A model generated the notes under the pieces. It ran no database searches, was not told the origin of the DNA, and saw nothing but the letters and a program-made list of their open reading frames with translations. Positions 28,501-54,300 of a stretch of DNA of 64,000 nucleotides are shown here, piece by piece. Source of the DNA: Faecalibacterium sp. HTF-F. GTDB lineage: Bacteria > Bacillota > Clostridia > Oscillospirales > Ruminococcaceae. The position numbers and the translations under genes are program-made. The first letter of the stretch is position 1; each line of letters begins with the position of its first letter. Where the stretch lies: contig NZ_CP094473.1 of the NCBI RefSeq assembly GCF_023347535.1, positions 992,001 to 1,056,000 of the forward strand, written 5' to 3'.

Positions 28501-31113
28501 CTGATGCCGCACCAGAAAAATGCGGTAGCGCACATTCTGTACGGCAACAATACGCTGCTGGCGCATTGCGTGGGCGCAGGCAAGACCTTCCAGATGATTG
28601 CTGCCGGCATGGAGAGCCGCAGGCTGGGCCTGTCGCAGAAGAATCTCTATGTGGTACCGAATCACCTCACGGAGCAGTGGGGCGCAGATTTCCTGCGGCT
28701 CTATCCCAATGCGAATGTGTTGGTGGCAACGAAGAAGGATTTTGAACCCAGCAATCGAAAGCAGTTCTGCTCCCGTATCGCAACCGGCGATTACGATGCC
28801 ATCGTGATCGGTCATTCGCAGTTTGAGCGTGTGCCGCTTTCCCCGGAACGGCAGAAAGCCATTGTAGAGCGTCAGATCGACGATATTACGCTGGCTCTGG
28901 CCGATGCCCGGAGTGAGGACAGCCGCAGTTTTACGGTCAAGCAGATGGAAAAAACAAAGAAAACACTGGAAGCAAAGCTGCAAAAGCTGAACGACCAGAC
29001 GAGAAAGGATGATGTGGTTACATTTGAGGAACTGGGTGTTGACCGTCTGTTTGTGGACGAGTCACATTTCTATAAAAATATGTTCCTCTACACAAAAATG
29101 CGGAATATCGCAGGTATTGCACAGACCGATGCACAGAAGTCCAGCGATATGTTTGCAAAGTGTCAGTACTTGGATGAGCTGACAGGCGGCAAGGGTGTGA
29201 CGTTTGCAACCGGAACCCCGGTCAGCAACTCGATGGTGGAACTGTACACCATTATGCGGTATCTCCAGTATGACACCCTGCAGAAGATGGGACTGAGCCA
29301 CTTTGATGATTGGGCGGCATCCTTTGGTGAAACCGTCACGGCAATCGAGCTTTCCCCGGAAGGAACCGGCTACCGTGCGAAAACACGTTTTGCCAGGTTC
29401 TTTAATCTGCCGGAACTGATTTCTCTGTTCAAAGAATCCGCAGATGTGCAGACGGCGGATATGCTGAACCTGCCTGTGCCGAAAGCAGAGTACATCAATG
29501 AAGTTCTGAAACCCAGCGAGATACAGGAAGAAATGGTGAGTTCCTTTGCAGACCGTGCCGAGGCTGTACGCAACGGCAGCGTGAATCCGAAGTTCGATAA
29601 CATGCTGAAAATCACCAACGATGGCCGAAAACTGGCACTCGACCAGCGGCTTATGAACGAGATGCTGCCGGATGAGTCGGAGAGCAAGGTCAATCGCTGT
29701 GTGGACAATGCGTTCAAGGTTTGGGAAGAATCTGCGCCGGACAAGGGAACGCAGTTGATCTTCTGTGACTTATCGACACCAAAGGCAGATGGTACATTCA
29801 ACGTATACGATGATGTGCGGGAGAAGCTGGTGGCGAGAGGTGTTCCCCGTGAAGAAGTGGCGTTCATTCACGAGTATAACACCGAAACCAAAAAGGCAGA
29901 GCTTTTTGTAAAAGTGCGCGCCGGACAAGTGCGAATCCTGATGGGGTCTACGCCGAAACTTGGCGCGGGAACCAATATTCAGGATCGGCTGATTGCACTG
30001 CATCATCTGGACTGCCCGTGGAAGCCGTCTGACCTGGAACAGCAGGAGGGGCGTATTCTCCGGCAGGGAAACCGGAATAAGCAGGTGAAAATCTATCGTT
30101 ATGTCACGGAAAATACGTTTGATTCGTATATGTGGCAAATTCTGGAAAATAAACAGAAGTTTATAAGCCAGATTATGACATCCAAGTCGCCTGTCCGTGC
30201 CTGCGATGATGTGGACGATACCGCGCTGTCCTATGCCGAAATCAAGGCACTGGCAACGGGTAATCCCTACATCAAGGAAAAGATGGATTTGGATATTCAG
30301 GTCAGTAAGCTGAAGCTGCTAAAAGCCAATCACACCAGTCAGATTTATAGCTTGGAATCGGATATTGCACGCCGCTATCCGCGAGAAATCGCTGTGGCAC
30401 AGGGTCAGATTGAAGCACTGAAAACCGATATGGAAGCGGCAAAACCGCTTCTGGCGCAGGACAAAGACCACTTCGCTATGGAAATCAGCGGTAAGGTGTA
30501 CAGCGAACGCAAGGAAGCAGGTGCAGCCATTATCGAGGCTTGCAAGGCTTTGAAAGCAGCAGGCACCGAGGGCAGGATTGGCAGCTACGGTGCGTTTGAA
30601 CTGCATTCCCGGTTTGACAACTTCGATAAGGTGTTCCGCCTGTCCATCAAGGGTGCATGGAACTACTCGATGGAAGTCGGCAAAGACCCGCAGGGTAACA
30701 TTCTGCGCGTTACCAATGCGCTGGCAGGCATTGAAAGAACGCTGCCGCAGGTGGAACGCAGACTGGAAACCTTGGAACAGCAGTTGGCGCAGGCAAAGGA
30801 AGAAGCCAAACGTCCCTTTGTGCAGGAAGCGGAACTGGCTGAAAAATCTGCGCGCCTTGCGGAGCTGAACTCTCTGCTCAACATGGATGAAAAGGGCAGT
30901 GAGGATGCGCTGGGAGTGGACGAGGATGCAGCCGAAACCGAAGTTGCAGACAGGCCGCGCCAGCCTGTGAACTATGCAGGCCGCGTTGCAGAGCGCACGG
31001 CGGACAATGTGCGGAAACCCTCTGTACTGGCACAGCTTCATGCAAAGCAGGCAGAGCGCAGCGCAGAACCGCAGAAATCCCAGAAGCGGAAAAGTCACAA
31101 TATGGAACTGTAA
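22558..31113 (+). CDS. Giant DNA methylase / SNF2-type helicase of ICEs
   Basis: 2851 residues from TTG 22558 (AAAGGAGG upstream). Order: an N-terminal ArdC/LtrC-like segment (DWMSYLDVAARLYRYSFTDT, then LLIHAQRPDA), a dual-coding disordered stretch (about 288-401, see tnpV), two similar domains (about 460-590 and 680-800), acidic linkers, an N6-adenine methylase-like domain (LEPSCGVGNFMG at about 1337; NVPFG at about 1400), then a superfamily 2 helicase (GAGKT about 2005, DESH about 2165, GTPVSNS, EGRILRQGNR about 2497) and a basic C-terminal tail ending KSHNMEL. NVPFG differs from the usual NPPF motif, so methylation activity is uncertain. Probably protects or processes element DNA in the recipient. 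Confidence 0.85.
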   Translation: MPQINDIRELAQQNARYVSNSPQDWMSYLDVAARLYRYSFTDTLLIHAQRPDATACAELELWNQKMSRWVNRGAKGIALLDDTGPRTKLRYVFDIADTHLVRGGKTPLLWNLDSHEHEQAILDHLEDTYGLSQTDSINTALMELAQQLTADNLDEAMDGLAYEVADTFLEELDEDNIRVRFRELMTNSIFYTLSRRCGQEPMDVLDDDDFIRIVDFNKLPVLSFLGNAVSEQCEAVLFDIGREMRKIYKKEITQQLEKSVDSLYNTNTDFSTLKHETEENTTKGGQENGVDVLPQGRLSVPESGREGRAADHREVRDAAQDVPEREPKELVSEYADERQAEPASGADRGSSGEPGGNPAGQPEREVSGTEQGERPAGMGGAPEQPDGDGRGDRLEGIGVQLTEPTTEQDLSEAEEEIASAFSLPDLPTVEQQIRAIEAPIQARYADEIALDPEVVDEILRTGSNRSKGRLRLIYNFMVEKTPEEYTEFVKNEYGTGGKGFEIDGAKYAVWFDDLGLRIAAGDTAKGGTLANAFLSWEDVSNRIHELLRQGEYAPQAVLDAARQNALQEHAQTLAYMERDLADGVAEAVFQDTEIFRGGFPELTDRLADLLDDTDFLTDLNDRLSALGEAYAEDKDLMRMHFYKPDKVAALFHQFAKPYQNYSARDGFHWNEYKRFITDDEINGYFTRGSNYSDSRLAIYSFFLNHEDKKVRADFLKDHYGIGGSSHALCGADDSHEDHDGRNIVLERGSYGNSYASVHLNWNQAAGRIDQLIRASEYLKPADYSRMPVYEQEQMAMRVMGFYYHLPNEVERPFPQDLYHEEGRKALVEKLEAPEQAVELLEQMDNALLSVPLDSEEYERKAESLSILHQYVEGTYTIFPEKKRAVEIVGPEQGQISMFDFMEQEPQSKEQSTAAAVEKPRKDVPIADEKPSEQTLQPLPLDAANEYNALKERYPNALVGYEQHGNFEFYGEDAKRVSEFLGSKLLEKETALGKVEVSGFPREQWASQAKKLWKQGESVYLSGQQEDGTHAQTKYFRREEYLPVNTIVELDDREFRVDSVNFEQGTVSLQDMTLAKEARYPIFRMEPLEYIRHLYEQVDVPMEEAVEITVFTALHNAGVAYEDFSPEQMDVIYSVAESGGELEELLNPDFPPEQMQLIADVQNRTDAISRAAAEEALEPLTQQPMTPAEVNHARRQHNLPLDSGAETKQPAQPKQKPINFRITDDDLGAGGPKTKYKANVEAIRVLQTLDAEQRQATAEEQEILSRYVGWGGIPQVFDENNAEWSKEYAELQSLLTADEYKEARASTLNAFYTSPTVIKAMYEALGNMGLSKGNVLEPSCGVGNFMGLVPDSMEKIQMYGVELDSISGRIAQQLYQKNKIAVQGFETMQFPDSFFDCVVGNVPFGNYKVPDKRYDRHNFLIHDYFIAKSLDLVRPGGVVAVVTSSGTMDKKDSSVREYLANRADLVGAIRLPNNAFQRNANTSVVADILFLQKRDRAAVERADWVDLGETPEGYSINQYFAQHPEMVLGEITTESTQYGKQETTVKPIEGADLAKQLKEAVSSIHATITEPEISDDELDVQEEPIPADPSVKNFSFTNVDGQIYYRENSFMNKVELPAVTAERVLGMIALRETTRKLLDCQLHDGSDAEVQLLQNELKQQYTAFKAQYGLINSTANKRAFRQDSSYCLLASLEILDEEKNLKRLADIFTKRTIRKPEPVTSVDTPSEALALSIGEKAKVDVPFMMQLCGKPEQEITDELAGAIFRNPVTQQWETSDEYLSGNVREKLATAETFAENHAEYQINVDYLKRVQPKDLDASEIEVRLGANWVKPEYITQFMREVLKTPNYYVGSDIKATYSEISGAWNISGKSLDRGNPLVTNTYGTMRVNAYKLLEDALNLRDTKIYDTIHDADGDHRVLNKQETMLAQQAQESIREAFKQWIFKDLDRREDLCATYNRIFNAIRPREYDGSHIRFEGMTPEISLMPHQKNAVAHILYGNNTLLAHCVGAGKTFQMIAAGMESRRLGLSQKNLYVVPNHLTEQWGADFLRLYPNANVLVATKKDFEPSNRKQFCSRIATGDYDAIVIGHSQFERVPLSPERQKAIVERQIDDITLALADARSEDSRSFTVKQMEKTKKTLEAKLQKLNDQTRKDDVVTFEELGVDRLFVDESHFYKNMFLYTKMRNIAGIAQTDAQKSSDMFAKCQYLDELTGGKGVTFATGTPVSNSMVELYTIMRYLQYDTLQKMGLSHFDDWAASFGETVTAIELSPEGTGYRAKTRFARFFNLPELISLFKESADVQTADMLNLPVPKAEYINEVLKPSEIQEEMVSSFADRAEAVRNGSVNPKFDNMLKITNDGRKLALDQRLMNEMLPDESESKVNRCVDNAFKVWEESAPDKGTQLIFCDLSTPKADGTFNVYDDVREKLVARGVPREEVAFIHEYNTETKKAELFVKVRAGQVRILMGSTPKLGAGTNIQDRLIALHHLDCPWKPSDLEQQEGRILRQGNRNKQVKIYRYVTENTFDSYMWQILENKQKFISQIMTSKSPVRACDDVDDTALSYAEIKALATGNPYIKEKMDLDIQVSKLKLLKANHTSQIYSLESDIARRYPREIAVAQGQIEALKTDMEAAKPLLAQDKDHFAMEISGKVYSERKEAGAAIIEACKALKAAGTEGRIGSYGAFELHSRFDNFDKVFRLSIKGAWNYSMEVGKDPQGNILRVTNALAGIERTLPQVERRLETLEQQLAQAKEEAKRPFVQEAELAEKSARLAELNSLLNMDEKGSEDALGVDEDAAETEVADRPRQPVNYAGRVAERTADNVRKPSVLAQLHAKQAERSAEPQKSQKRKSHNMEL
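23420..23761 (+). CDS. tnpV: TnpV, encoded inside the giant helicase gene in another frame
   Basis: 113 residues, full length for TnpV: MELTYYRKGDYLFPNLAVKD, then GKYGMLRRTYLKE, HLAQIEEAAESR and a KEKDPLAWVAHQNNLTAM ending. It has a strong ribosome site (AAAGGAGGACAAGAAA before ATG). It lies wholly within 22558-31113 on the same strand but in a different frame. The giant frame over the same bases reads a Gly/Glu/Arg/Pro-rich disordered segment. TnpV function is unknown; it is usually found in elements with TnpX-type recombinases. Confidence 0.75.
   Translation: MELTYYRKGDYLFPNLAVKDEPQTIGKYGMLRRTYLKENRRNWYQSMLMSGRLNQHLAQIEEAAESRVETLLDSLNEKFPAPSKEKDPLAWVAHQNNLTAMAEEIVLKELVYN

Positions 31114-54300: not shown

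Follow-up and report, generated by a model that had tools for sequence, protein, structure and literature searches.

A two-box C-terminal tail shared by proteins of conjugative elements

Five proteins encoded by two separate conjugative elements in a 64,000-nucleotide stretch of the Faecalibacterium sp. HTF-F genome (contig NZ_CP094473.1, positions 992,001 to 1,056,000; the window) end in the same tail, which also ends many MobQ relaxases and the PcfB proteins encoded beside the coupling protein VirD4. Because this tail is found on MobQ relaxases and on putative establishment proteins, and on none of the channel proteins, we read it, with a probability of about 0.68, as a two-part signal at the C-terminus for recruitment and export by those conjugative type IV secretion systems (T4SS) of Firmicutes that combine PcfB with a VirD4 of the CD1115 family. 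VirD4, alone or with PcfB, would feed tailed proteins into the channel next to the relaxase and its bound DNA, and these helper proteins would reach the recipient together with the transferred strand, the tail serving as their address label. The tailed proteins that may act in establishment are DarB-like methylase-helicases, ArdA, ArdC, YodL and LPD proteins, and the family of a protein of 317 amino acids (aa). Binding to VirD4 or PcfB, export, a role in the recipient and the role of PcfB itself are what we infer from these patterns. A sequence-only reading of the window had proposed a module that marks establishment proteins for delivery to the recipient, a proposal supported by the way in which the tail keeps to conjugative elements and ends many MobQ relaxases.

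The tail has two boxes. Box 1, [KR]-P-S-[IV]-x3-L, is followed by basic residues, and box 2 is a Lys-rich run that closes, exceptions aside, in [KR]-x-K-x-[HNQ]-[DE]-[LM]-E-[VLR]. The common pattern of the five C-termini had been recognized before, and their sequences stand as written: each fits S-[VI]-x3-L with a basic stretch, the first three proteins belonging to element 1 and the last two to element 2 (Table 1), as had also been stated. The division into two boxes, the conservation of the end and the presence of the tail on PcfB, beside VirD4, had gone unnoticed. Only the first half of the tail is present in the 269-aa protein, which is missing from the 53 profile hits described below. AlphaFold models the 317-aa protein (mean pLDDT 75.3) with a folded body, a helix at residues 290-300, following S289, at a pLDDT of about 53, and an unstructured remainder at 35-45; box 1 is predicted to start a short helix and box 2 to be disordered.

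The shared tail is confirmed as real. A held-out profile was built from 11 tails of other genera, with the window and its genus excluded, and was run against the last 60 residues of the 471 stop-to-stop frames of at least 60 aa. It recovered the 317-aa protein, the 1108-aa protein and the 2851-aa helicase (E-values in Table 1), and, run on whole frames instead, the 317-aa and 1108-aa proteins only. A profile made from the five tails found exactly those five, which are its own training set, at E<=10 in the 2.78-Mb genome, and a 24-row model found the five proteins and two PcfB genes in the same genome at E<=1e-3. Chance and plain basic ends are ruled out as explanations by the held-out profile, by shuffles and by the control families considered below.

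Distribution across genomes and protein families

Profile searches covered 31 relatives and genome sets drawn from the class (291), one other family (70), the own family (197) and the phylum (398), and stretches of up to 20 kb were taken around many of the hits, giving 1133 open reading frames (ORFs) from 51 sources (the window and 50 loci, some of them near-copies). In this set the profile gave 53 hits at E<=1e-3, all 53 at the extreme C-terminus; five weaker hits were also C-terminal and two were not (E 0.56 and 10). A relaxase, VirD4, VirB4, PcfB, TopB or NlpC gene occurs besides the tail protein in 33 of 39 tail loci, or in 37 if the tail protein itself is counted. The six loci lacking a further marker are L027, whose tail protein is a PcfB with its VirD4 next door inside the window, the relaxase contigs L108, L112 and L120, and L113 and L119, near contig ends.

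Among the 398 phylum genomes, six hits lie outside the own genome, five to PcfB and one to LPD1 (named by sequence likeness), all C-terminal, with the protein ending 31-34 residues past the start of the match. A spread to non-conjugative replicons, the outcome that the sequence-only reading saw as speaking against it, is found neither here nor in the phage loci below. The same restriction to conjugative elements, with PcfB or LPD1 as the only outside hits, argues against a degradation or stability tag, or another host system that reads C-termini (a protease adaptor), limiting these proteins in the donor. Although the conserved E-[VLR] end is what a C-terminal reader needs, we consider this the most improbable of the explanations.

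With tails removed, 58 tail proteins fall into nine BLASTP clusters (E<=1e-3): a polyvalent group joined by shared domains; PcfB; LPD1; a 173-aa family; the L120 (MobQ) and L112 (MobP) relaxases; a protein with a below-cut-off DUF3848 match; the relaxase L108; and two small unknowns. L108 and L120 form separate clusters within one Pfam relaxase family, and L108 is kin of L120 because Pfam assigns it to MobA/MobL. The putative substrates are thus unrelated in their bodies. The claim that the other domains of the five window proteins differ holds in part, since Pfam finds YodL in three of them and ArdC-N in two. A rival reading is that the tail has no signal function and is a Lys-rich, low-complexity C-terminus copied by descent among polyvalent genes that often recombine. 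YodL, ArdC and LPD domains are shuffled among the tail proteins, and a recurring domain, DUF4316, covers part of the tail. However, the tail sits on bodies without mutual BLASTP similarity (PcfB, MobQ and MobP relaxases, LPD1, DUF3848-like), its position-specific residues exceed composition shuffles, and among the 120 best homologues listed for the 317-aa protein (79-100% identical to it), 115 keep box 1 and 116 keep the end E[VL]. Shared descent alone is, in our judgement, very unlikely.

Phage homologues

Eleven loci of a phage collection with homologous bodies (DarB-like helicase, LPD15, ArdC) served as a control, and the tail profile found no match in their 119 ORFs. Unlike the polyvalent proteins of conjugative elements, seven homologues from isolate phages (VvAW1, SopranoGao, Fontainebleau, nd4, PEp14, FP_Lagaffe and Stormageddon) have true ends that carry no tail, the best E among the PEp14, FP_Lagaffe and Stormageddon ends being 10; the protein of Itty13, whose end falls beyond its record, was excluded from the seven. 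A phage origin of the tail is rejected on these seven ends.

At least two of the eleven records filed as phage look like misfiled conjugative DNA: OR846606.1 (L290) holds PcfB, VirD4, ArdC and a relaxase, and MT835923.1 (L291) holds NlpC and TopB. A stretch resembling box 1, not picked up by the profile, closes the 2597-aa helicase of MT835923. No phage record matches the 317-aa protein. PcfB matches 11, every one named 'Bacteriophage sp.', and these records look like fragments of conjugative plasmids or of integrative and conjugative elements (ICEs).

Relaxases and control families

MobQ relaxases are necessarily transferred, and so exported. The relaxases of L108, L112 and L120 carry the tail but were detected through it; to avoid this circularity, MobQ relaxases were picked by their nuclease domain alone (PF03389; 291 genomes, 30 loci), regardless of tail, which gave 27 distinct complete ends. 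These were scored with an end matrix of 9 residues trained on polyvalent proteins only, with 1915 ends as background. The area under the receiver operating characteristic curve (AUC) is 0.93 (p 7.7e-15); the 99th background percentile is exceeded by 10 of the 27 and the 95th by 16, and the ends outscore shuffled versions of their last 15 residues (p 6.6e-7). Of the 27, 16 show the box-1 pattern where own shuffles give 1.1, about 11 being true tails by eye (four near-identical), compared with 9 of 57 MobP relaxases (1.2 expected) and 5 of 266 controls (5.4 expected). A hidden Markov model (HMM) of cargo tails only reaches at least 5 bits in 6/27 and 4/13 MobQ relaxases, in 3/57 MobP relaxases and in 20/1915 other ORFs, the top ones resembling further cargo, and in 0/266 controls (VirD4, VirB4, TopB, NlpC, recombinase, RepA, methyltransferase). 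In the L120 MobQ family, 118 of the 120 best homologues have the box-1 pattern, and the names listed include Streptococcus agalactiae, S. oralis and Parvimonas micra.

We infer that the L120 family corresponds to streptococcal MobQ elements which, according to passages of PMC5357655, encode no coupling protein; the same source places elements with serine integrases within Tn5252-type ICE genes. A shared signal would therefore be useful to them.

PcfB and the coupling-protein neighbourhood

In both elements a PcfB/DUF3801 (PF12687) gene lies immediately before VirD4, outside the window; both score above the family cut-off (113.9 and 141.8 bits). The VirD4 gene of element 2 sits just past the window edge, and that of element 1 is the presumed reader of the tail. 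PcfB has an AUC of 0.99 by end matrix, shows the box-1 pattern in 41/41 and reaches at least 5 bits with the cargo-only profile in 38/41. Its model is of low confidence (pLDDT 58.5), with the tail predicted as a single helix (128-153) and nothing else nameable. PcfB would either be a substrate alongside the others or act as an adaptor, with its own tail filling the docking site. On an Enterococcus faecium plasmid that bears the vanB cluster, PcfB, a YodL protein and a 314-aa homologue of the 317-aa protein are all tailed, and TopB, an MT-A70 methylase, CD1107 and DUF6017 on the same plasmid have no tail; we take its vanB-bearing element to be Tn1549-like. As a separate observation, the 375-aa protein P0304 joins the first 58 or so residues of PcfB to a whole protein of the 317-aa family, by fusion or as an assembly artefact.

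Several observations weigh against recruitment for export. The held-out profile is weak for two window tails, those of the 1346-aa protein (E 8) and the 269-aa protein (E 1.5), which reach 0.09 and 0.10 without composition correction. MobP relaxases are transferred, and most of them, those of the window included, lack box 1; the one of element 2 speaks against a universal tail. A sample of 40 loci matched by PF03432 gave 38 recognized MobP relaxases, and the whole tail is present in none of the 37 that are complete, so that a universal relaxase tail is rejected for MobP. By end matrix the 57 MobP relaxases (L112 left out) have an AUC of 0.87, 7 of them passing the 99th percentile and 23 the 95th, their ends being similar in style only. 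Relatedness inflates the relaxase counts, as the near-identical MobQ tails illustrate, and some of the 16 MobQ pattern matches fall in coiled-coil-like stretches that are not true tails. The box-1 pattern in background ORFs is slightly above shuffles (76/1900 vs 49.2), perhaps through unrecognized cargo. VirB4 has an AUC of 0.72 and TopB one of 0.61 by end matrix (none over threshold), and families of related proteins inflate the test; hence the AUC alone overstates the case. In pCF10, the best-studied relative, PcfB, PcfD and PcfG have no canonical tail. Lastly, we know of no report of PcfB as a substrate, and docking without export would therefore fit it equally.

Such a docking tag would tether proteins in the donor to the coupling protein, PcfB or the relaxosome, or to single-stranded DNA through the basic run, and would aid processing or hold a store at the channel mouth. 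PcfB, presumed to reside at the channel base beside VirD4, is tailed at the frequency given above, and a basic disordered run suits DNA or surface binding. Nevertheless, the tail is carried by MobQ relaxases, which must leave the donor, many of the bodies have counter-restriction or polyvalent domains that make sense in the recipient, and none of the 266 controls has it. Docking alone thus appears unlikely, though it is the alternative to export that we take most seriously.

In a more elaborate version of the export reading, PcfB and VirD4 would make up a receptor for which the tail is a coded address. The PcfB tail would be the gatekeeper of a groove from which cargo and relaxase tails displace it, and each element family would have a dialect of its own, in which the tails of PcfB, cargo and relaxase co-vary; we put this forward tentatively, as rather doubtful. 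In eight records the PcfB tail was compared by raw alignment score with the C-termini of the remaining proteins of its element. On pEfmO_03 the top match is an ArdC protein, level with VirB4 by z-score, and the relaxase comes next; the MobQ relaxase is the best match on pAPRE01, and polyvalent-type proteins rank first and second on the Tn1549-like plasmid and in element 2. On pCF10, PcfD is second after VirB4, an SSB-like protein is first in the pCF10-like record, and no protein stands out in L. paracasei or in element 1. These rankings are suggestive, and dialect matching between PcfB and cargo is only partly borne out. In pCF10 (L128) and the pCF10-like record (L290), PcfB, PcfD (ArdC) and a 251-aa protein share, by eye, F-[DE]-E-R-L and a basic run close to their C-termini, which may represent box 1 in a pCF10 dialect.

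The two elements and their tailed proteins

Each element carries VirB4, NlpC/P60 or CHAP, and TopB genes and relaxases inside the window, and the tailed genes (Table 1) lie beside these relaxase and T4SS genes. The 2851-, 1346- and 1108-aa proteins clearly combine several unrelated ArdC, ArdA, YodL, LPD or methyltransferase-helicase domains, as polyvalent proteins do, and the 269-aa protein combines YodL and LPD18. The 317-aa protein has no Pfam match, and its body fold has no match at E<=0.001 in the PDB or among viral models; none of the five is above cut-off in NCBIfam. Homologues of the helicase in L010, L011, L012 and L013 end in the same tail, and homologues of the 1346-aa protein in L019, L020 and L022 have similar ones. 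DUF4316 (PF14195) is above its curated cut-off in the 1108-aa (50.3 bits) and 269-aa (34.5 bits) proteins, in the latter overlapping the half-tail (residues 213-244), and has no Pfam match at E<=0.001 in the 2851-, 1346- and 317-aa proteins. The segment ISLVDLANAVKADKERG of the 1108-aa protein is possibly a degenerate extra copy of box 1, a likeness seen by eye only.

Table 1. Features of elements 1 and 2 (window positions, except for the two PcfB genes)
Feature	Position	Strand	Element	Basis and remarks
2851-aa methylase-helicase with MutS-I segment	22558-31113	+	1	Pfam; C-terminus RKPSVLAQLHAKQ..SHNMEL
Its tail (RKPSVLAQL ... SHNMEL)	31012..31110	+	1	Held-out E 1.5e-5
ArdC-YodL-LPD protein, 1346 aa	31626-35666	+	1	Pfam; C-terminus KKSVLDALRSLKSKK..RGDIEL
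Its tail (KKSVLDALRSLKSKK ... RGDIEL)	35547..35663	+	1	Weak held-out score
YodL-LPD18 protein, 269 aa	35914-36723	+	1	Pfam; C-terminus RISVLDRLHIKLEERKQKS
Its half-tail, box 1 only (RISVLDRLHIKLEERKQKS)	36619..36720	+	1	Weak held-out score
317-aa protein	50414-51367	-	2	C-terminus PRPSIRAQLKADKAK..NHDMEV
Its tail (PRPSIRAQLKADKAK ... KNHDMEV)	50417..50515	-	2	Held-out E 1.4e-12
LPD15-ArdA-ArdC-YodL protein, 1108 aa	51371-54697	-	2	Pfam; C-terminus KKPSIRAQLRADKEK..SQDLERS
Its tail (KKPSIRAQLRADKEK ... SQDLERS)	51374..51466	-	2	Held-out E 2.7e-10
DUF4316 segment directly before the 1108-aa tail	51521..51658	-	2	Pfam, residues 1014-1059; contains ISLVDLANAVKADKERG
VirD4-type coupling protein	26..1753	+	1	Pfam T4SS-DNA_transf
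MobP relaxase	48004..49350	+	2	Pfam Relaxase; without box 1; ends QPEREKGTERG
PcfB	G000:C1:991364-991861 = L027:19364-19861		1	Just upstream of window; tail ESVRQKLEKVK..
PcfB	G000:C1:1060575-1061051	-	2	Tail KKPSIRKLLSTLKE..REVSL
154-aa protein	31178-31642	+		Mom-family match; no tail
Gene group between VirD4 and VirB4	2800-13227	+		EF-G-like gene at 2800-4719
VirB4	14677-17151		1	
DNA N6/N4 methylase	61173-62132	-		Adjoins VirB4 of element 2; no tail

Some neighbouring genes deserve mention. The untailed 154-aa protein, encoded between the helicase and ArdC-YodL genes, has a Mom-family match (PF25680, 27.6 bits; cut-off 27.1), and its gene is a possible antirestriction gene of the DNA-modification kind within the ICE. 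The region between VirD4 and VirB4 of element 1 gives the impression of an inserted mobilizable element; it holds an EF-G-like gene (probably of the ribosomal-protection kind) and genes for a methyltransferase, a second relaxase, RepA_N, an IstB-like ATPase and a serine recombinase. Elsewhere, three consecutive genes of L119 (9359-12032, minus strand; 544, 170 and 173 aa), all tailed and two of them mutually related, form a compact cargo operon; the body of the 173-aa protein has no Pfam match.

Relation to known systems

Delivery of polyvalent proteins has so far been predicted from domains and gene context. Passages of Iyer et al. (2017; PMC5512222) predict their delivery with the DNA and record ArdC of pSa and TraC1 of RP4 as transferred proteins, which bears out the earlier premise that ArdC-type proteins travel with conjugating DNA. 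The window helicase, the ArdC/YodL/LPD protein and the ArdA-ArdC protein, next to Tra/Vir genes, belong to this class; however, those passages name no common C-terminal tail, and the tail described here extends to PcfB and relaxases. The other premise, that basic C-terminal signals direct proteins through type IV channels, also agrees with the sources, whose passages describe C-terminal charged or hydrophobic clusters as signals (PMC3297438, PMC11288057, PMC5802825). Like the signals treated there (those of Agrobacterium VirB/VirD4 substrates, Legionella RalF and E-block, and CagA), the tail is short, at the extreme C-terminus and on otherwise unrelated substrates of a single channel type; unlike them, it has a conserved two-box sequence in Gram-positive elements in place of loose charge or hydrophobicity, and its export is a proposal. 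The TSA/TSB signals, in passages of PMC12624023 and PMC3297438, are likewise on relaxases and thought to work via VirD4, but they are comparatively large and complex, whereas the window tail has 30-40 residues. The Pfam models PcfB/DUF3801 (PF12687) and DUF4316 (PF14195), both families of unknown function, cover a portion of the tail in certain proteins. The open-access literature gave two papers for DUF3801 and none for DUF4316, and, judging from abstracts and passages, no description of a Gram-positive tail of this kind.

Implications

A tail shared with relaxases would amount to a sequence rule that predicts the set of delivered proteins of any such element. It points to a candidate receptor, VirD4 with PcfB, and gives the uncharacterized PcfB family a testable role. 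The choice of a helper by mobilizable elements could likewise depend on the tail, and, should the dialect reading be true, those with a tailed MobQ relaxase would use the channels of foreign ICEs by means of a forged address.

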